A stretch of 39,460 nucleotides of DNA from Burkholderiales bacterium (GTDB taxonomy: Bacteria > Pseudomonadota > Gammaproteobacteria > Burkholderiales > Burkholderiaceae_C): assembly GCA_005793295.1 (NCBI GenBank), contig SXSX01000106.1, positions 1-39,460 on the forward strand, given 5' to 3'. Made by a program: the position numbers and the translations under genes. The notes under the pieces are model-generated. The model searched no databases and was not told the origin of the DNA. It saw nothing but the letters and a program-made list of their open reading frames with translations. Position 1 is the first letter of the stretch, and every line of letters starts with the position of its first letter. Below, piece by piece: positions 210 through 14,961 of this stretch.

Positions 210-479
210 TCAACGCATCGGTGTTGGGGTGTCGTAGTTGTCAAGGGAGGCGATGATGAGCGCATCGGCCACCACACGGGGGTGGGCTGGAGCGAACCAC
301 CAAGCCGCAGGTGCGCCGATAGTGATCATCACGCGTTCGCCGATGCCGCAACCCATGGGGTCATAGCAGACCACCACGTCTTTGGGGTAGTCCAGCTGCA
401 CTTCCAATAATGCGCCAGCGGGTAATTCGGGCAGTCGTTTGCTGGCCACGATACGGCCAATCACGGTTCCTGTTTTCAT
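210..479 (-). CDS. EutN/CcmL-family BMC vertex (pentamer, BMC-P) protein
   Basis: 89 aa, MKTGTVIGRIVASKRLPELPAGALLEVQLDY...VVCYDPMGCGIGERVMITIGAPAAWWF; matches EutN/CcmL pattern (V-G-x-V-x-a-t-x-K...D-x-v-G-G-x-G-e-x-V-l). ATGA overlap with the upstream gene. Confidence 0.9.
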   Translation of the reverse strand: MKTGTVIGRIVASKRLPELPAGALLEVQLDYPKDVVVCYDPMGCGIGERVMITIGAPAAWWFAPAHPRVVADALIIASLDNYDTPTPMR

Positions 480-1396
480 ATTTTTACTCCTTGTTCAATG
501 GTGATGCCACGCTTGCGCAGGGCTTCTTTGCCCAAGGGCGTCATGACCGCTTTGGGGTGGAGCCGAACGGTTTTCACGCTCAGCGGAAGAGTTTTAAGCA
601 ACTTCTCGCCAACCACACCCTTGAGTTCGGGTGCGTCGTCGGCAGCTTGGTGTGCATGCAGCTCACATTGATCGCCCTTGCACTCGCAGGCCTTGCCTGC
701 CTTGCACGACGAACAGCAGACCGCCGGGTCGATGTCGGTGGTGGCGGCCACGGCTTTCACCGCCGCTTCGTCCACCCGCATGTCAAAACGAAGCAGGCCC
801 GATTGCGCCGCTTGCAGCAGTGCCGGACTGGCGGCCAAACGCTTAAACAGCTCGGTCAGGGCGTGTGCCTGTGCCGCTGTGCCCACGCGCAAGGGCACCA
901 CCACGCCCTGAGGCCCAGTCGCTGATGCAGCGGCCTGTGCCGCAGTCGCCGGCTTGGCCGCGCCGATCTGCTTCCAGTACGCGTCTTTGACAGCGATCAG
1001 ACCATCGCGAATTTGGTACACATCGGTGCCGTCCAACGTGGCCGTCTGGCCACCCGGCAGGGGCACACCCACCTTGTAGTTTTGAACCACGGTCTGGCCC
1101 AGCACGTTCATGTGCGAGTCCGAGAACTTGGGGCCAGTGGGGCTGGCAAAGCGTTCTTTCAAAAACGCAACGCAGGCTTCGCGGCCACGGAGCACGCGCG
1201 AGTCGGGCAAGGTCCACACCACATCGGGGGCAAAGCAAGCCACGATCGCCTCGGCATTCAAAGCGGCATAACCGGCTTCAAAGCGCTGCATCAGCGCGGT
1301 CACTGATGCCTTCGATGTGTCTGCGCCCGTGGCTTTGGCTCCCAAAGCCGTGCGCACCTGCGCCCGGATTTGTTGCCGCAAAGCGTCTGTGCTCAC
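476..1396 (-). CDS. BMC-associated fusion protein: N-terminal NTF2/SnoaL-like domain, Cys-rich segment, C-terminal TPLGKEALRKRGI tail
   Basis: Likely GTG start at 1396 (GTGA overlap with BMC-T stop). NTF2-like segment MQRFEAGYAALNAEAIVACFAPDVVWTLPDSRVLRGREACVAFLKERF; Cys-rich CCSSCKAGKACECKGDQCELHAH; tail VRLHPKAVMTPLGKEALRKRGITIEQG. Confidence 0.75.
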   Translation of the reverse strand: MSTDALRQQIRAQVRTALGAKATGADTSKASVTALMQRFEAGYAALNAEAIVACFAPDVVWTLPDSRVLRGREACVAFLKERFASPTGPKFSDSHMNVLGQTVVQNYKVGVPLPGGQTATLDGTDVYQIRDGLIAVKDAYWKQIGAAKPATAAQAAASATGPQGVVVPLRVGTAAQAHALTELFKRLAASPALLQAAQSGLLRFDMRVDEAAVKAVAATTDIDPAVCCSSCKAGKACECKGDQCELHAHQAADDAPELKGVVGEKLLKTLPLSVKTVRLHPKAVMTPLGKEALRKRGITIEQGVKI

Positions 1397-2007
1397 GCAG
1401 CACCTCCTGCATCGCGGATCACCGCCTCGGCCACCGCCGCGGCGGCTCGCACATCGGATGCGGTACCCGACAAGTACAAGCGACCAGCCGGACCCATGAA
1501 ACGGCAATCCACCAACTTGACGTTGGCGGCTTTCTCGGCCTCGTTGGCCACTAGCAACGCATACGAGGACGTGGTCATCTCCATGATGTAGAGCGACTCG
1601 CCGGGCAAGAGCATACTGCCAGCCTTGCTGCGGTTGATCAAAAACGCGTGATAACCGTCGACCCGGTCAATCACTTTGGAGGCCAAAATTTCGGGCTTGA
1701 GCACGCTCTTCTCGCTCACGCCCATGGCATCCAACACAGCTGCACCCGCCGACTTGACCGACGAGGAAGACTGGCCGTGGAACTCCAAATAACCAAACTG
1801 TCGCTCAACCACCAAGTTGCCGGGTTTGACGTTGTCGTGCTTGAGCGCGATGTCGGTCAACCACTCGATGTCCATGCCGGGGGCCACTTCGATGACCATG
1901 GCGGCGTCGTTGTGGCGCGGCAGAAAACCTCGGGCGGTAGAGCCGAGCAAACACATGAGCTGTGGCTGCAAGCGGTCCAGAAAAATGTAACTGCGCAAAG
2001 TGGACAT
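1393..2007 (-). CDS. Tandem BMC-domain shell protein (BMC-T)
   Basis: 204 aa with two BMC-like halves: IEVAPGMDIEWLTDIALKHDNVKPGNLVVERQFGYLEFHG and LYIMEMTTSSYALLVANEAEKAANVKLVDCRFMGPAGRLYLSG. Confidence 0.88.
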   Translation of the reverse strand: MSTLRSYIFLDRLQPQLMCLLGSTARGFLPRHNDAAMVIEVAPGMDIEWLTDIALKHDNVKPGNLVVERQFGYLEFHGQSSSSVKSAGAAVLDAMGVSEKSVLKPEILASKVIDRVDGYHAFLINRSKAGSMLLPGESLYIMEMTTSSYALLVANEAEKAANVKLVDCRFMGPAGRLYLSGTASDVRAAAAVAEAVIRDAGGAA

Positions 2008-2016
2008 GAAGGGCTT

Positions 2017-3510
2017 TCAGCGAAGGTGTTCGAGTTCTTCCTGCACGATGCGCAGGACGGTGGCCTGGAGTTCAGGCGTGAGGGTGGACGTGGTGCCCGA
2101 AGCCGCTGACAAAGCGGCACCCGAAGCCATGGCCCCAGCCCAGCCGCCGGGCAGCGGAAAAGCCACGCGCTTCCAGTTGACCAATAACTCGGGGCCAACG
2201 TTGCAGTCGACCGAGCTTTTGCCGGCGTAGCCTGTGCCGATGGTGAAGGTGTAAGGCAAGCCGGTGTTGGCACCCGTACTGTCGTGCACGGTAGAGCCGT
2301 TGACGACCACACGGTAATAGTCCAGCGCCGCGCCCCAGACCACCGCCTGCTCGGCGCTGGCCGAATGAATGCCCGAAGTATGACCCGCACCGCTTTGTTG
2401 CAGCATGAGGCGCGCCACGCCAATGGCTTGGTCCATGTCTTGAACCACCACAGAGCCCAAAATGGGCGAGAGCTTTTCTTTCAGCAGCACATGACCGGCC
2501 TTCGGGTTGGCAATGGGGCACACCAAGGCTTGGCAATCCACGGGCACTTGCACGCCTGCGGCCTGCGCGATCTCGTGCGCCGGGCGGCCCACCACTTTGG
2601 CGTTGAACTTGCCACCAGGGAAGGCGTAATTCTGGATTTGCAGTGCTTCTGCGTCGGTGCACACATGCGCACCCTGGCGGGCCAGCGCTTGCTGCATCTG
2701 CGGCGCAATGCTGGCGTGCAGCATGAGCACCGAAGGGGCCGAGCAGGGGCTGCCGTGGTCGAAGTTTTTGGCGGCCAAAATGGTCTGCGCAGCCGCTTCG
2801 ATGTCGGCGCTGGCGTCCACATAAATCGGCACATTGCCAGAGCCCACGCCAATGGCAGGGTTGCCCGAGCCATAGGCCGCACGCACCATGGGCGTGCCGC
2901 CAGTGGCCAAAATCACGTCGGTGCGGGCGTCGCGCATCAGCGCACCCGTGGCCTCGACCGTGGGGCGGGTCAGGATTTGCAGCGCATGGGCCGGGCCACC
3001 GGCTTTTTCAATGGCGGCTTGCAGCTCATTTGTCACGGCGGTGCAGCAAGCCAGCGCCACCGGGTGCGGCGAGATGACCAACGCGTTGCGCGTCATCAGG
3101 CACAAGATGGTTTTGAAAATGATGGTGGCCACTGGCGAGGTGGAGTTGGACAAGCCCACCACCACACCGGCGGGCCGGCCGATTTCGACGATGCGCAGCG
3201 CATCGTTGCGCCGCACGCCGCCCAACGCCACGTTGTCCCACGCGGTGGGAGTGAGGGTGCAGGCGATCTGGTTCTTGGCAATTTTGTCGGCCACCTTGCC
3301 AATGCGGCTTTCCCGTACCGCCCAGTCGGCATAAAACTCAGCGCGCGGCAACAAGGCGGCTGCCACCTGCTTTGCCACTTGCTTGGCTTGCTCGGGCGTC
3401 CAATAGACCAGCTCAGCAGCGGCTTGCCGAGCATTGGCCAGCAAATCGCGGGCTTCCTGCAAGGCGGCCAGGTCGTGATCGGTCAGATCGATGGAAGCGC
3501 TTGAATTCAT
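2017..3510 (-). CDS. BMC-associated CoA-acylating-type aldehyde dehydrogenase (EutE/PduP-like)
   Basis: 497 aa; GLSNSTSPVATIIFKTILCLMTRNALVISPHP; catalytic Cys context FDHGSPCSAPSVLMLH; ends with linker plus TPELQATVLRIVQEELEHLR helix. Confidence 0.9.
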   Translation of the reverse strand: MNSSASIDLTDHDLAALQEARDLLANARQAAAELVYWTPEQAKQVAKQVAAALLPRAEFYADWAVRESRIGKVADKIAKNQIACTLTPTAWDNVALGGVRRNDALRIVEIGRPAGVVVGLSNSTSPVATIIFKTILCLMTRNALVISPHPVALACCTAVTNELQAAIEKAGGPAHALQILTRPTVEATGALMRDARTDVILATGGTPMVRAAYGSGNPAIGVGSGNVPIYVDASADIEAAAQTILAAKNFDHGSPCSAPSVLMLHASIAPQMQQALARQGAHVCTDAEALQIQNYAFPGGKFNAKVVGRPAHEIAQAAGVQVPVDCQALVCPIANPKAGHVLLKEKLSPILGSVVVQDMDQAIGVARLMLQQSGAGHTSGIHSASAEQAVVWGAALDYYRVVVNGSTVHDSTGANTGLPYTFTIGTGYAGKSSVDCNVGPELLVNWKRVAFPLPGGWAGAMASGAALSAASGTTSTLTPELQATVLRIVQEELEHLR

Positions 3511-3529: not shown

Positions 3530-4582
3530 TCAACGATGTTGGGCCGCGTTAGCTACAGCATTCAGATCGACGCTTTCCAACGCGCTGAAGATGGCCTCCA
3601 CCGCCTGCTGCTCACGCGGGTTCGCCGCTTGCATGCGGGTGGTGTCGAGCAGCTGGCGCATGACTGAAGGCTGACCGCCTGGCGCAGCACTGACACCGGG
3701 GCTCAAAGTGGGCACGAAGCTGCCACAGGTCATGCGCTGACCTGCGCGGTAGTGGGGCGCGTAGTCGAATACGGCGTAGTGCTGCGTGGCGCAGTTGTCC
3801 CACATGGCCATCGAGTCTTTTTCCCAACGGAAGCGCACCATGAACTCGGGTTTTTTGACCCATTCATAAAGCATGTTCAGCACAGCCTCCGACAAGTCCA
3901 TGTGCATACCCAAAAAGCGCTTGGTCCAGATCGAATTGACGAACAAAATTTTGCGGCCGTTGTAGGGGTGCGTGATCACGGCCGGGTGCGTTACCGTGGG
4001 CGTGTTCTCGATCATCTTGCACTCTTGTGCACTGGCCTGCACCATCATGCCGCTCTTGGCTGAGGCACGCTGCGCCAAGCGCTCGTTGGCATTGATGCGG
4101 CGAAAGTGCCAAGGCAAATCGTGGTCAGCCTGCAGGCCTTCGAGCATCTGCTTCATACCGGGGTTGAGCGCGTCATACGCAGCCCCCGCGTGCATCCACA
4201 TGGTGTCGCCGCCCGATGGGGGTAGATCGGTGATACGCAAGATGGAGACCATGTTGGGCTTCTTTCGGAAGGTCACGTCGGTATGCCAGCGGTCGGTCTC
4301 TGGCGCTTCGTGGCCTTGGTTCGAGATCAGCTGAATTTGCGGGTGGCCTTCGAGGTGCGGGAAGAACTCGTGCTTTTCCATTTCACCAAAGTTTTGGCCC
4401 AAGCGAATGTAAGACTCCGGCTTCAAGGCCTGCTTGCGAAAAAACACCACGCCGTATTGCCAGAGGGCCTGCTTGATTTCTTCGTAAACGTCTTCTGAGC
4501 GGGTGGTGTTCAGGTCGACGCCGCTGATCATGCCGCCAATCGTGGGGGTCATCGGATCTACCTGAATGTGACGAAATTCCAT
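3530..4582 (-). CDS. TauD/TfdA-family Fe(II)/2-oxoglutarate-dependent dioxygenase
   Basis: 350 aa; HxD motif in RWHTDVTFRKKPNMVSIL, GGDTMWMHAGAAYDAL, distal DNCATQHYAVFDYAPHYRAGQR (His and Arg). Confidence 0.92.
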   Translation of the reverse strand: MEFRHIQVDPMTPTIGGMISGVDLNTTRSEDVYEEIKQALWQYGVVFFRKQALKPESYIRLGQNFGEMEKHEFFPHLEGHPQIQLISNQGHEAPETDRWHTDVTFRKKPNMVSILRITDLPPSGGDTMWMHAGAAYDALNPGMKQMLEGLQADHDLPWHFRRINANERLAQRASAKSGMMVQASAQECKMIENTPTVTHPAVITHPYNGRKILFVNSIWTKRFLGMHMDLSEAVLNMLYEWVKKPEFMVRFRWEKDSMAMWDNCATQHYAVFDYAPHYRAGQRMTCGSFVPTLSPGVSAAPGGQPSVMRQLLDTTRMQAANPREQQAVEAIFSALESVDLNAVANAAQHR

Positions 4583-4618: not shown

Positions 4619-5374
4619 TTATTGCCAGCTCAGCAAACGTTTCTCTAACCAGGTCATGGTGCGCACCACGGCCACGCCCAGCAGCGCTAACACCAACAGC
4701 AGCGCCATCACGCCATTGACTTCAAAAGTGGCACCCAGATAAGCCAGCGACTGACCCAAGCCCTTTTCAGAGGCGATGATCTCGGCCCCGATCACGCCCA
4801 ACATGGCATAAATGAGGCCCAGACGCAGGCCCGAAAATATCACCGGCACCGCACCGGGCAAAGTGACCTGAAAGAAAGTGGTCACGGCGCTGGCGCCTAG
4901 CGTCTTGCAAAGCATGACGTGGTCCTGGCTAACGCCGCGAATGCCGGCCACCGTGCTGGAAAGCACAATGAAAAACGTGAGGCTGCAGCCCACTGCGATC
5001 TTGGAGCCCAGGCCCAATCCAAACCACAAAATGAACAAAGGGGCCAACGCAATACGGGGCATCACGTTCATGGCGTTGAGGTAGGGGTCGAGGAATTTTT
5101 CGACCCGCGGAAAAGCCACAAACATCAGCCCAACAGCCATGGCCGCGACGCTGCCAAGCGTGAAGGAAATCAAGGTGCCAGCCATGGTCCAACCCATGTC
5201 GGTCCAGAGCTTGCCGGTGGCGATGTTGTTCCACAGAAATTTGATGACGCCGCTGGGCTGTCCGACAAAGGTCGGATCAAGCCAGCGATTAACGGTAAGC
5301 CACTCGCCCAACGCCAGCACGATGGCGATGAAAACGAGGTGGGCTCCGCCCCAGCGAAAGGTTTCAGCCTTCAT
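4619..5374 (-). CDS. ABC transporter permease (SsuC/TauC-like, BPD_transp_1)
   Basis: Start MKAETFRWGGAHLVF at 5374; hydrophobic segments; NVMPRIALAPLFILWFGLGLGSKIAVG matches the SsuC/TauC EAA-loop region; stop region overlaps upstream ATPase gene. Confidence 0.9.
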   Translation of the reverse strand: MKAETFRWGGAHLVFIAIVLALGEWLTVNRWLDPTFVGQPSGVIKFLWNNIATGKLWTDMGWTMAGTLISFTLGSVAAMAVGLMFVAFPRVEKFLDPYLNAMNVMPRIALAPLFILWFGLGLGSKIAVGCSLTFFIVLSSTVAGIRGVSQDHVMLCKTLGASAVTTFFQVTLPGAVPVIFSGLRLGLIYAMLGVIGAEIIASEKGLGQSLAYLGATFEVNGVMALLLVLALLGVAVVRTMTWLEKRLLSWQ

Positions 5375-6146
5375 GTTTGCTCCAGCCAGATTCGAGGTGT
5401 GACCACAGTTGCGCATAAAGCGCGTGGAAATGGGAATCTTTTTGCAGCTCGCGAATAGAACGCGGGCGCGGCAAGTCAATGGCCACATCGGCCACGATAC
5501 GGCCAGGGCGCGAGGTCATGACAATCACCCGATCAGACACAGCCACCGCTTCGGACAAATCGTGCGTGACAAACAGCACCGATTGCTGGTGCTGTTGGCA
5601 CAATCGCAATAACAAATCTTCAAGTTGCAGCTTGGTTTGCGCATCGAGCGCACCAAAAGGCTCATCCATCAAAAGCAGGGGCGAACCCATAGAGAAGGTC
5701 CGCGCCAAGGCCACGCGCTGGCGCATGCCGTGCGACAAAGCTTTGGGCAAAGTGTTTTCAAAGCCCGCCAAACCCACCTCTTGCAGCATTGCGCGGGCGC
5801 GCTCTTGGGCTTGGGCACGCGGCACGCCGCGCACTTCCATGCCAAACATGGCGTTGCCTAAAGCGGTTTTCCAGGGCATCAAGCTGTCGCGGGCCAGCAT
5901 GTAGCCGACCTGCGGATTGCCTTGAATCGGCGCTTGGCCACCCACCGTCAAACTGCCCTTGCCGGTGTGCGGCACCAGCCCGGCGGCCAAGTTCAGCAGC
6001 GTGGTTTTGCCACAACCGCTGGGGCCCACCAGAGAGACAAACTCACCTTGCCGAACGTGCAGCGAAACATCGGACAACACCTGGCTGGCGCCGTCAAAGC
6101 TTAAATGCACGCCATCGGCGGCGATGGCCAGGGTGGTAGCGCTCAA
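5364..6146 (-). CDS. ABC transporter ATP-binding protein (SsuB/TauB-like)
   Basis: Walker A GPSGCGKTTLL, signature LSHGMRQRVALART, Walker B LLLMDEPFGALD, H-loop VTHD. Confidence 0.95.
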   Translation of the reverse strand: MSATTLAIAADGVHLSFDGASQVLSDVSLHVRQGEFVSLVGPSGCGKTTLLNLAAGLVPHTGKGSLTVGGQAPIQGNPQVGYMLARDSLMPWKTALGNAMFGMEVRGVPRAQAQERARAMLQEVGLAGFENTLPKALSHGMRQRVALARTFSMGSPLLLMDEPFGALDAQTKLQLEDLLLRLCQQHQQSVLFVTHDLSEAVAVSDRVIVMTSRPGRIVADVAIDLPRPRSIRELQKDSHFHALYAQLWSHLESGWSKHEG

Positions 6147-6182
6147 TTGAGGTGCTCCGCTTATGCAAAGATCGTCGAGGGC

Positions 6183-7187
6183 TTAGCGCAGTTGCAAGAT
6201 CTTGCTTGTATCCACTGGTTTGTCAATTTGTCCGGTCCGGCTCAGGTAATCAGCCGCTGCCTGTAAGGCTTTGACATCCAAGGAAAACCGAGCGCCACTG
6301 ATGGAGTTGCGTAGCGAAGTTTCGACCGCTTCTAGCCCGGCAGGGCCTTCGATCTTGAAGGTGTCGTTGATGACTTTAAGTACCGCCGCAAAGTTTGCAG
6401 GGTTCTGTATGAAAGCTTCGGACTCGCGCATAGCCTTGGCAAACGCGGTCAGCGTAGCGCCCTTCTTTTGCGAAAAATCACCACGCACGGTCATCGGACC
6501 TGAAGCGCCGTTGAGTTGCAATATTTCCTTAGGTCCTTCGCCTTTGCGGGGGTCCACGATCACACGACACACCTTCATGGCTCCACAAAATCCGTCCATG
6601 GGTGCGAACAACATAAGCGCGTCAATCTGCTTGTTGGCAATGGCGGGCAAAGCGGTGTTAGGCGCGCCGACGGGCACGATGGTCACATCACTGGCAGACA
6701 AGCCTGCGCCTTTGAGCATGTCGAGTAATTGGAATTCAGCGCCCGAACCGCGCGCTGTTACGCCGATTTTTTTACCCTTGAGGTCAGCCATTACGGCGGG
6801 GTAACCTTTGGCCGCGTTAGGGGTTTCGGTGTGGGTACCGGCCATCAAAAAGAAGATGTTGTCACGCGCTGCATTTCCAATGATCTTCAGGTCTGCGCCT
6901 TTGTTTGCAGCCTGAATAACTACTTCAGCAGGGCCAAAGGCGATATCGATGTCGCCCGCCAACAGCGTCTGAATCCCCAATGGGCCTGCAGGAATGGTCT
7001 TGAGCTCGCACTTGAGGCCATTCTTTTCGCAGTAGCCGTTAGCAGCAGCGACACGAACAATGACGTTTCCCAAGCCCGGATAGTCTTGGATACGCAATGT
7101 TTCCGTTTGCGCCATAGCGTTGGCGCCCAAAATCAGGGCTAATGCACCAAGGGTACTTCTCAAGAAGGCAGGGGCAGAAAATGTCAT
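6183..7187 (-). CDS. ABC transporter periplasmic substrate-binding protein (NMT1/THI5-like/SsuA-type)
   Basis: 334 aa, signal peptide MTFSAPAFLRSTLGALALILGANAMAQ; GLGNVIVRVAAANGYCEKNGLKCELKTIPAGPLGIQTLLAGDIDIAFG. Confidence 0.85.
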   Translation of the reverse strand: MTFSAPAFLRSTLGALALILGANAMAQTETLRIQDYPGLGNVIVRVAAANGYCEKNGLKCELKTIPAGPLGIQTLLAGDIDIAFGPAEVVIQAANKGADLKIIGNAARDNIFFLMAGTHTETPNAAKGYPAVMADLKGKKIGVTARGSGAEFQLLDMLKGAGLSASDVTIVPVGAPNTALPAIANKQIDALMLFAPMDGFCGAMKVCRVIVDPRKGEGPKEILQLNGASGPMTVRGDFSQKKGATLTAFAKAMRESEAFIQNPANFAAVLKVINDTFKIEGPAGLEAVETSLRNSISGARFSLDVKALQAAADYLSRTGQIDKPVDTSKILQLR

Positions 7188-7353: not shown

Positions 7354-8058
7354 ATGGATTCCCCGAGCCTGCATTCCGTTGGACGAGCCTTCAAAAACAT
7401 GGATGTAGAGGCCTTATCACAAACCTGGGCAGTGAACTCGGCATTGAACCAACGCTCAGCTCAGGCATTGCTGGGGATTGGCGTGCTGCGTCATTGGCAA
7501 GAGGGTCAAGTGGTGCTCAGCCGGGGGCAGTCCATCTCCACCGCACTGCTGCTTATGAAAGGGCGCTTGCGGGTCAGCGTGACGACCTCCGAAGGTGAAG
7601 AACAATTGCTGCGCTGGATGTTGCCGGGAGAAATTTCTGGCTTGAGCTCAGTGTTTGCAGAAACCACCTATCCGGCCGATCTGGTCTCGGCGACCCCCAG
7701 CCAGGTGCTGCACATCGAACGCGCTAACTTGCTCGATCTGATCACTCAGGACGCTTTGGTGGCGGTGGATCTTCTGCGCATTTTGGGCTTGCGCATCAAC
7801 CAGTTGTTTGACACCTTGGCTGACCAGGGGATGCATACCTTGGAGCAGCGTGTGTGGGCCACTTTGGAGCGCCTCGCTACATTTAACAGCGTGCAAGTGG
7901 CCGACGGCGTGCAGCTGCGCGTAAGCCAATCGGACTTGGCACAAGCCGCGATGGCCTCACGCCAAAGGGTCAACCAGCAGCTGCGCCACTTTCAGGACAA
8001 GGGCCTGATCCGGCTAGGCTACCGCAATATCGTCTTGCTGCGGCCAGCTCGCCCGTGA
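7354..8058 (+). CDS. Crp/Fnr-family transcriptional regulator (no cysteines)
   Basis: cNMP-binding-like fold LRHWQEGQVVLSRGQSISTALLLMKGRLRVSVTTSEGEEQLLRWMLPGEISG; C-terminal HTH VSQSDLAQAAMASRQRVNQQLRHFQDKGLIRLGYRNIVLL. Confidence 0.9.
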   Translation: MDSPSLHSVGRAFKNMDVEALSQTWAVNSALNQRSAQALLGIGVLRHWQEGQVVLSRGQSISTALLLMKGRLRVSVTTSEGEEQLLRWMLPGEISGLSSVFAETTYPADLVSATPSQVLHIERANLLDLITQDALVAVDLLRILGLRINQLFDTLADQGMHTLEQRVWATLERLATFNSVQVADGVQLRVSQSDLAQAAMASRQRVNQQLRHFQDKGLIRLGYRNIVLLRPARP

Positions 8059-12785: not shown

Positions 12786-13280
12786 TTAAAAATCAATCTC
12801 CAGCGGCGTAGGCAGCTTGTCATCCAAATACAAGCTGTACTCATCCCACACGCCTTCGCCGTAGTGCTTGTCACACAGGGCTTCAATATCGCCTAGGGTG
12901 ATGAATAAGGTGCTAAACATCACGTCGTAGAAAAATGGCTGCTCCGTTCCTGCGGCCTCGTCCACCTCCAAATGAAAGCCGTGAACCCACACGCGCTTGC
13001 CGGCGTATTTGGCTTCAAACGCCGCCTTGCGCTTTTGGAATTCGGCTTCTTCGTATTCGTCTTCTGACAATCGGCGCAGGTGGTAGGCGTTGCCGTGCAA
13101 GGGGTGGGCCGGGTCGAGCTGCATATCAATCATGTGCCACTCGCCAGACATCTGGTTGGCCACATTGGCCAATTGCTCCGGCGTGATATCACCTTCCCAG
13201 TGCACAACGTCGATGCAGTTCGATTGACCCACTTCACCGTCCCAGATACTGGCGCTGTGGCGCATGGTTTTTGTGTGCAT
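12786..13280 (-). CDS. Hypothetical protein, ~164 aa, acidic, function unknown
   Basis: ORF with likely start MHTKTMRHSASIWDGEVGQSNCIDVVHWEGDITPEQL at 13280; no family recognised. Confidence 0.65.
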   Translation of the reverse strand: MHTKTMRHSASIWDGEVGQSNCIDVVHWEGDITPEQLANVANQMSGEWHMIDMQLDPAHPLHGNAYHLRRLSEDEYEEAEFQKRKAAFEAKYAGKRVWVHGFHLEVDEAAGTEQPFFYDVMFSTLFITLGDIEALCDKHYGEGVWDEYSLYLDDKLPTPLEIDF

Positions 13281-13434
13281 TGCGGATTCCCTTTTGGCTT
13301 GGATGAAAACTCCTACCAGTCTACCCCCGACGCAGGCCAGATATTGCAAGTCGCAAAGCGTGAGCCGCAAGGTCTTTTCCTCCCCAAATTTTGTTAACCT
13401 GTCAGCTTTCCCATTGAACTCTCATCTACCGCCT

Positions 13435-14961
13435 ATGTCTTCCAAACGCCCGCACATTGTGTTCATCATGGCCGACCAAATGGCCGCACCCCTGTTGCCC
13501 ATGTACAACCCCGCGTCGGTAGTGAAGATGCCCCATTTGTCTGCCTTGGCCGCTGCCGGAGTCACCTTTGATTCAGCCTATTGCAACAGCCCTTTGTGCG
13601 CGCCCTCGCGGTTTAGCTTGGTCAGCGGTCAGCTGCCCTCGCAGATCGGTGGATTTGACAATGCGGCCGACTTTGCCGCCGACGTTCCCACCTACGCCCA
13701 CTACCTTCGCAACCTAGGCTACCGAACCGCGCTGTCCGGACAAATGCATTTTTGTGGCCCCGACCAATTGCATGGGTATGAAGAACGCCTAACAAGCGAC
13801 ATTTACCCAGCAGACTATGGCTGGGCCGTGAATTGGGATGAACTTGAGGTCCGTCCGAGCTGGTACCACAACATGTCGTCCGTGCTCCAAGCCGGCCCTT
13901 CGGTACGAACCAATCAGCTCGACTTTGACGAAGAAGTTGTTTTCAAGGCACGCCAATACCTTTACGACCACGTTCGCAACACGCCCGAACAACCGTTTTG
14001 CCTCACGGTCTCGATGACCCATCCGCACGACCCCTACACCATCCCCGCCGAGTTTTGGAACCTGTACCAAGACAGCGATATTCCCATGCCGCGCAACCCC
14101 ATCGCGCAGGCTGCGCAAGATGCACACTCCAAGCGCTTGCTCAAAGTGATAGACCTGTGGGACAAACCCGTAAGCGACGAAGCGATTCGCCGCGCACGCC
14201 GCGCCTACTTTGGCTCGTGCAGCTATGTCGACGCCAAAATTGGCGAAATTCTTAAAACTTTGGACGACTGCGGGCTGCGCGAGGACACCATCATCGTTTT
14301 CTCTGGTGACCACGGCGACATGCTGGGAGAACGCGGTCTTTGGTACAAGATGCACTGGTTTGAAATGGCAGCCCGCGTTCCATTGGTGGTCTGTGCGCCC
14401 GGGCGTTTTTCTCCCCACAAGGTGTCGCAAAGCGTATCCACCATTGACCTTTTGCCCACGTTTGTTGAGCTCGCCGGCGGCGCGGTTGACCCGCAATTGC
14501 ACTTAGATGGCCGCTCGTTGATGGCACACCTTCAAGGCCTAGCAGACACGCCAGGCCACGACGAAGTCATTGGCGAATACATGGCCGAAGGCAGCAAAAC
14601 GCCGCTGGTGATGATCCGACGCGGACCGTGGAAGTTCATTTACGGACAAGACGACGTCTGCATGCTGTTTAACTTAGACCAAGATCCCGACGAGTTAAAC
14701 AACCTTGCCGAACAAGCCGCATACCAAGACACGGCTCGCGCCTTTCACGAAGAAGTTGCCAAGCGCTGGGATCTCCCCGCCCTGCACGCCCAAGCCCTAG
14801 CCAGCCAACGCCGGCGTCGCTTGGTTGGCAAAGCCTTGGCAACAGGCAAACTCACCTCCTGGGACCACCAGCCCTTCGTCGATGCCAGCCAACAGTACAT
14901 GCGCAACCATAATGATCTTGACGACTTGGAGCGCAGGGCGCGGTTTCCGGTGGTGACTTAA
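13435..14961 (+). CDS. betC: Choline-sulfatase-like type I sulfatase
   Basis: Start MSSKRPHIVFIMADQMAAP; formylglycine motif CAPSR in NSPLCAPSRFSLVSGQLPSQIGGFDNAADF; IVFSGDHGDMLGERGLWYKMHWFE. Upstream in-frame ATG at 13264 overlaps the divergent gene and is less likely. Confidence 0.85.
   Translation: MSSKRPHIVFIMADQMAAPLLPMYNPASVVKMPHLSALAAAGVTFDSAYCNSPLCAPSRFSLVSGQLPSQIGGFDNAADFAADVPTYAHYLRNLGYRTALSGQMHFCGPDQLHGYEERLTSDIYPADYGWAVNWDELEVRPSWYHNMSSVLQAGPSVRTNQLDFDEEVVFKARQYLYDHVRNTPEQPFCLTVSMTHPHDPYTIPAEFWNLYQDSDIPMPRNPIAQAAQDAHSKRLLKVIDLWDKPVSDEAIRRARRAYFGSCSYVDAKIGEILKTLDDCGLREDTIIVFSGDHGDMLGERGLWYKMHWFEMAARVPLVVCAPGRFSPHKVSQSVSTIDLLPTFVELAGGAVDPQLHLDGRSLMAHLQGLADTPGHDEVIGEYMAEGSKTPLVMIRRGPWKFIYGQDDVCMLFNLDQDPDELNNLAEQAAYQDTARAFHEEVAKRWDLPALHAQALASQRRRRLVGKALATGKLTSWDHQPFVDASQQYMRNHNDLDDLERRARFPVVT

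Follow-up and report, generated by a model that had tools for sequence, protein, structure and literature searches.

Comparison of sequences and gene neighbourhoods identifies the protein encoded between two shell genes of a microcompartment (BMC) operon in a Comamonadaceae genome, here called X, as an elaborated version of an unnamed protein of 140–155 amino acids that holds the same position in RMM1 (Rhodococcus/Mycobacterium microcompartment) loci. Taken as a whole, X is best explained as an elaborated RMM1-type accessory protein that probably acts as a lumenal adaptor or assembly protein. The unnamed gene of the RMM1 shell block thereby gains a testable identity, and a short module connects it with EutT, EutQ and further proteins of BMC loci. 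The operon also suggests that common freshwater bacteria have a type of microcompartment in which an Fe(II)/2-oxoglutarate (2OG) dioxygenase is the likely signature enzyme.

Gene, operon and encoded enzymes

The window analysed is the whole of contig C71 (39,460 nucleotides) from a genome with a completeness of 77%. The open reading frame of X proposed in the first-pass annotation was recovered, on the minus strand and with a length of 306 amino acids plus stop; the plus-strand frame at 476–1396 is interrupted by stops. The gene is translationally coupled between its neighbours, sharing GTGA (X start and BMC-T stop) and ATGA (X stop and BMC-P start) with them, and these 4-nt overlaps fit one coupled transcript. 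The operon runs from an ABC transporter through a TauD-family dioxygenase, a CoA-acylating aldehyde dehydrogenase (AldDh) and BMC-T1 to X, BMC-P, BMC-H and BMC-T2 (Table 1). An assembly break near BMC-H divides it between two contigs, and the missing BMC-T2, 97.5% identical to Limnohabitans BMC-T2, was found at the end of contig C119 (G000, 5585–6080, L062).

Table 1 Features of the operon and of X, with positions in the window
Feature	Position	Strand	Basis or remark
BMC-H shell gene, cut by contig edge	1..143	-	PF00936
BMC-P (EutN/CcmL) vertex protein	210..479	-	PF03319
X, SnoaL/Cys-knuckle accessory protein, 306 aa, GTG start	476..1396	-	4-nt overlaps with both neighbours
X, C-terminal TPxA[RK] module, residues 257-306, related to EutT/EutQ N-termini	479..628	-	
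X, Cys/His knuckle CC-x2-C-x5-C-x-C-x4-C-x2-H-x-H, residues 227-249, clade-specific	650..718	-	
X, core, strand-helix-helix-strand, residues 164-209, common to RMM1 orthologues	770..907	-	
X, SnoaL_2/NTF2-like domain, residues 37-135	992..1288	-	PF12680, Foldseek
X, N-terminal helix MSTDALRQQIRAQVRTAL, candidate encapsulation peptide	1343..1396	-	alignments; AF2 helix 3-23
BMC-T1, tandem-domain shell protein, CcmP/CsoS1D-like	1393..2007	-	61% to R. jostii RMM1
CoA-acylating aldehyde dehydrogenase, type I, EutE/SauS-like	2017..3510	-	
AldDh C-terminal helix LTPELQATVLRIVQEELEHLR after variable linker, candidate encapsulation peptide	2020..2082	-	
TauD-family Fe(II)/2-oxoglutarate dioxygenase, candidate signature enzyme	3530..4582	-	PF02668; PDB TauD E=5.6e-61; active-site mapping
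TauD C-terminal tail	3533..3658	-	in BMC-encoded copies; absent from non-BMC G083 and E. coli TauD
ABC transporter permease, start uncertain	4619..5488	-	PF00528
ABC transporter ATPase	5364..6146	-	PF00005
NMT1-type periplasmic binding protein	6183..7187	-	PF09084
Crp/Fnr-family regulator, divergent, kept beside operon	7354..8058	+	

AldDh matched the profiles TIGR02518 (E=4e-103) and SauS (E=6e-81). The hydrophobic moment of its C-terminal helix was reached by 3.5% of shuffles; for the presumed encapsulation peptides in general, hydrophobic moments were mostly not significant alone. Type I BMC AldDh enzymes bear a C-terminal encapsulation peptide according to Sutter et al. (PMC8217296). No phosphotransacylase or alcohol dehydrogenase is encoded in the operon, nor, according to Axen et al. 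(PMC4207490), are they found in RMM and MIC loci. In having AldDh without these two enzymes, the operon resembles the MIC metabolosomes (incomplete core) of both papers (PMC4207490, PMC8217296).

The TauD-like enzyme keeps the Fe triad (H99, D101, H255), the 2OG residue R266, and H70 and R270 (E. coli numbering), the last two of which bind the anion, contacting the sulfonate in TauD structures. Four taurine-pocket positions are altered (Y73F, N95T, S158H and F206W), and the score of 251.8 misses the cut-off of 313 for the PRK09553 taurine dioxygenase equivalog. From these kept and changed residues, together with the score below the cut-off, we infer that the substrate is anionic and probably not taurine. 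In the BMC-encoded copies a variable linker leads to a conserved C-terminal tail of some 40 residues; the nearest non-BMC homologue found (G083, 57% identity) does not have this tail. The G083 gene (L053, 8845–11549) is also divergent from a Crp/Fnr regulator, so that the TauD–Crp pairing may be older than the BMC association, and it is followed by a gene like those for tripartite-tricarboxylate-type binding proteins.

Two versions of the importer (window 4619–7187; L008–L035), with binding proteins about 90% or about 50% identical to that of the window, accompany the same BMC operon, which suggests transporter exchange. An enoyl-CoA hydratase and an SrkA-like kinase downstream in L013 recur in only a few loci and an HD protein in none of the others, and these were not counted as operon members. 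A sulfatase-like protein, of choline-sulfatase type by eye, is encoded on the same contig outside the operon (window 13264–14961).

Distribution of X and its relation to RMM1 loci

The species-level collection supplied about 30 loci containing X or its end. All fetched loci with enough flank have BMC-T1 before and/or BMC-P after X, the complete ones share the gene order given above from importer to BMC-T2, and the operon is conserved in about 30 Limnohabitans-type genomes. Of 90 Limnohabitans genomes, 30 carry X (23 among the 56 good ones); in a phylum-wide draw of 399 genomes X was seen only in the window's own, plus one marginal match. Versions with SnoaL domain and Cys cluster come from lake bacteria only (Limnohabitans and close kin). 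Marginal matches aside, all clear homologues of the C-terminal half seen in profile and genome searches lie in BMC loci, and the earlier view of X as a BMC protein is upheld. One locus titled Akkermansia muciniphila (L012) holds a Limnohabitans-like operon with an X identity of 75%; its label or bin is probably wrong. BMC-T1-like matches in three other Burkholderiales genomes lie in alpha-carboxysome-type contexts, and one on a Nitrobacter plasmid is carboxysomal; these were set aside.

A tblastn search with BMC-T1 led to the RMM1 locus on plasmid pRHL2 of Rhodococcus jostii RHA1, which has the order AldDh, BMC-T, a hypothetical protein of 145 aa, BMC-P, BMC-H, BMC-T and aminotransferase, with identities to the proteins of the present operon of 41% for AldDh, 61% for BMC-T1, 41% for BMC-P, 75% for BMC-H and 55% for BMC-T2. 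The 145-aa protein has a helix-like N-terminal stretch, a counterpart of the VVVPLRVG...LLRFDMRVD region of X and, in its C-terminal part, a VVITPLAREQIR module, without SnoaL domain or cysteine cluster. A TauD search led to another genus of the same family (G071), with a TauD-type operon and the same shell set, where TauD and AldDh are 46% and 49% identical to those of the window and X is a protein of 155 aa, again without SnoaL domain and cysteine cluster. Two gammaproteobacterial RMM1 loci likewise place X between BMC-T and BMC-P. On pRHL2 (L043, 12001–17490) the block BMC-T, X, BMC-P, BMC-H occurs twice in tandem with identical protein accessions.

In single comparisons, the profile of the window's X family matched G071 X with E=4e-7 over 120 columns and R. 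jostii X with E=2e-4, and G071 X matched R. jostii X with E=2e-7. An orthologue HMM based solely on G071 X and three RMM1 X proteins, the four orthologues compared from outside the Limnohabitans-type clade, scored all 29 window-family members (one of them a fragment) at 21–32 bits, against 12.7 for the best of 5000 shuffles. When the 50-residue C-terminal module was searched against 321 genomes of the class, it returned the window and the two gammaproteobacterial RMM1 loci (E=3.6e-7 and 6.8e-5), plus one further marginal match (E=0.0097). X thus falls into one orthologue group with these proteins, as a gene between BMC-T1 and BMC-P with a homologous core, and the elements common to the group are a helix at the N-terminus, the strand-helix-helix-strand region and the TP module at the C-terminus.

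The window's operon shares with RMM1 two BMC-T, one BMC-P and one BMC-H in the same order, a homologous AldDh and the X core. It differs in that the aminotransferase signature gene is absent, whereas in the window, the G071 locus and Limnohabitans-type loci the partner of AldDh is TauD; furthermore, the window has an NMT1-type ABC importer, and its X has the SnoaL and Cys insertions.

Domains of X

The N-terminus of X resembles an amphipathic helix and is followed by a SnoaL_2 domain and by an Ala-rich linker that varies in length and composition between copies; after these come the core, a Cys/His knuckle and the C-terminal module. The N-terminal helix is retained by the SnoaL-less copies, and a similar one is seen in alignments of the RMM1 orthologues; hydrophobic moments of the X N-termini were not significantly above those of shuffles. 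The NTF2/SnoaL-like domain read from the sequence by the first-pass annotation is confirmed by a PF12680 score of 60.2 bits (Pfam cut-off 27) and by the fold, since Foldseek with the X model returned KSI, limonene-epoxide hydrolase (LEH) and SnoaL-like cyclases as best matches (E ~1e-7). Close stand-alone relatives of this domain were absent from 299 genomes. The only stand-alone relative seen, a SnoaL protein with 40% identity to this domain (L037, 1235–1582), lies beside TRAP-transporter-like ORFs (by eye), outside a visible BMC locus and with no clear functional clue.

The AF2 model of the core is of modest confidence (mean pLDDT 68.8, pTM 0.32), as are the models of the C-terminal half, and Foldseek with the core model gave no fold match, with nothing below E 0.3. 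Searches with the C-terminal half returned nothing meaningful from Pfam and nothing from PDB sequences. The knuckle CCSSCKAGKACECKGDQCELHAH (residues 227–249) and the tail HPKAVMTPLGKEALRKRGITIEQG (residues 280–303, window 488–559) are present as originally described. In an alignment of 28 X relatives, the six Cys and the last His of the knuckle are invariant and the other His is His in 26, so the cysteines called in the first pass do recur in homologues of the Limnohabitans-type clade. Together with the synonymous TGC/TGT variation at five of the six Cys codons, this invariance means that the cluster is not due to chance, and it indicates selection within this clade; comparison with the orthologues indicates that the cluster is not ancestral. 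It is a candidate site at which metal binding is plausible and Fe-S binding possible.

The C-terminal module of X, carrying 'TPLGKEALRKRGI', was found to match the N-terminal ~45 aa of EutT and EutQ, as the proposed EutT-like tail had anticipated. The X-family profile gave E=0.0016 for EutT and E=0.027 for EutQ, and in single comparisons G071 X matched the N-terminal 45 aa of E. coli EutQ with E=8e-5 and EutT with E=1e-3. The shared module reads ITEAxLRxxH..TPxARExL..xI, and EutT also has a CCxxC. However, the module is C-terminal in X, which is without adenosyltransferase or cupin domain, and the CCxxC precedes the module in X; of the EutT metal motif H-x11-CC-x2-C, X has the CC-x2-C without the upstream His. 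An EutT-type adenosyltransferase was rejected, as no Cob-adenosyltransferase family of Pfam or NCBIfam was matched and only the 45-aa module matches. TIGR02536 (eut_hyp) was matched weakly by 19 of 19 C-terminal halves (best E=0.0045); the window's X matches its last ~45 positions and not the remainder, with 13.1 bits against a cut-off of 152.6, far below membership.

On the 984-kb plasmid of R. oxybenzonivorans the module matched best to a small protein encoded in a BMC locus (E=5e-5), and on a plasmid of Methylibium petroleiphilum the sole match, a weaker one (E=0.009), was the N-terminus of a BMC-locus malate dehydrogenase. Given these matches and those in EutT and EutQ, the TP module is probably common to accessory proteins of several BMC types, and it may represent a general shell or cargo docking element. 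In R. oxybenzonivorans (L046) the module forms a separate small gene just before malate dehydrogenase, and in M. petroleiphilum (L045, 12603–13901) it is fused to the malate dehydrogenase N-terminus.

Role of X in the compartment

Of the 28 full-length X proteins compared, 26 have both SnoaL domain and Cys cluster, and the other two (L034 and L035) have the Cys cluster without SnoaL in an otherwise intact operon. In a TauD+AldDh tree, whose rooting on G071 is weak, L035 is nested beside the SnoaL-bearing L019 with a support of 0.99, and the operon can therefore persist through loss or exchange of the SnoaL domain. By these comparisons, SnoaL and knuckle appear as clade-specific later additions, SnoaL being dispensable. 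As RMM1 and G071 X lack both at the same locus position, and L034 and L035 lack SnoaL, neither part is the core catalyst, and X is most likely a lumenal assembly or cargo-organising protein rather than a missing catalyst. Invariant polar residues across the diverged copies are limited to one Glu and two Arg, which suggests binding rather than catalysis. The first-pass suggestion of a lumenal enzyme or scaffold thus survives in its scaffold part and not in its enzyme part, and X no longer qualifies as the "unknown catalytic component" of an operon that itself holds a dioxygenase and an AldDh, which are the candidate catalysts.

In the proposed mechanism, the ABC importer would bring in an anionic small organic compound, which the TauD-like dioxygenase would oxidise to an aldehyde, releasing sulfite or another leaving group, and AldDh would convert the aldehyde to acyl-CoA inside the shell. 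X, synthesised together with BMC-T1 and BMC-P, would enter the lumen by means of its candidate N-terminal encapsulation peptide and act as adaptor or assembly protein; its TP module would bind a shell or cargo partner common to many BMCs, the SnoaL domain would serve for oligomerisation or small-molecule binding, and the knuckle would be a structural Zn or an Fe(II)/Zn site.

Against X as an adaptor stands the strong conservation of SnoaL and Cys cluster within the clade, which could reflect a real added activity. In this clade X might be a lumenal enzyme whose SnoaL domain takes the product of TauD, an aldehyde or hydroxylated intermediate, as substrate and works as isomerase, hydratase or lyase, with the rest anchoring it in the shell. 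This is in keeping with the clear SnoaL_2 match, the hydrolase, KSI and cyclase folds found by Foldseek and the pocket-type residues W61, D65, D93, N106, D122, D125, Y140 and W141, each at least 90% conserved, but we regard it as unlikely, as the domain is missing from L034 and L035 with the remaining operon intact, from G071 despite the same TauD and AldDh, and from RMM1. The six invariant Cys and the invariant His under purifying selection could instead point to a candidate Fe(II)/Fe-S knuckle that supplies or protects iron for the lumenal dioxygenase, comparable to the metal site beside the TP module in EutT (in E. coli CCELC, with a His 12 residues upstream, after the homologous N-terminal module). 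Such an iron site is improbable: in G071 the same TauD occurs with an X that has no Cys cluster, module and cluster follow each other in the opposite order to EutT, X has no counterpart of the EutT His, and a Zn knuckle is equally likely. That X is a redundant or decaying fusion without an important role, as its variable linker and losable SnoaL domain might be taken to mean, is hardly credible, since X is intact in every complete operon copy seen, with invariant Cys and TP module.

Beyond the adaptor role of X, the locus might tentatively be seen as an oxygen-dependent metabolosome, in which a TauD-family signature enzyme works in the lumen of an RMM1-derived shell and the knuckle and SnoaL pocket of X would handle iron or intermediate; we hold this to be possible rather than probable. 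The open literature searched gave no description of a metabolosome with a TauD-type signature enzyme, nor of such a BMC in connection with SnoaL, 2OG or taurine dioxygenases or Limnohabitans, and TauD is not mentioned in the main texts of Axen 2014 (PMC4207490) and Sutter 2021 (PMC8217296). The locus type may already be catalogued under a MIC name in the supplementary locus tables of Sutter 2021. BMC catalogues hold many metabolosomes with AldDh and no known aldehyde-making enzyme (PMC8217296), for which a concrete candidate enzyme is useful.
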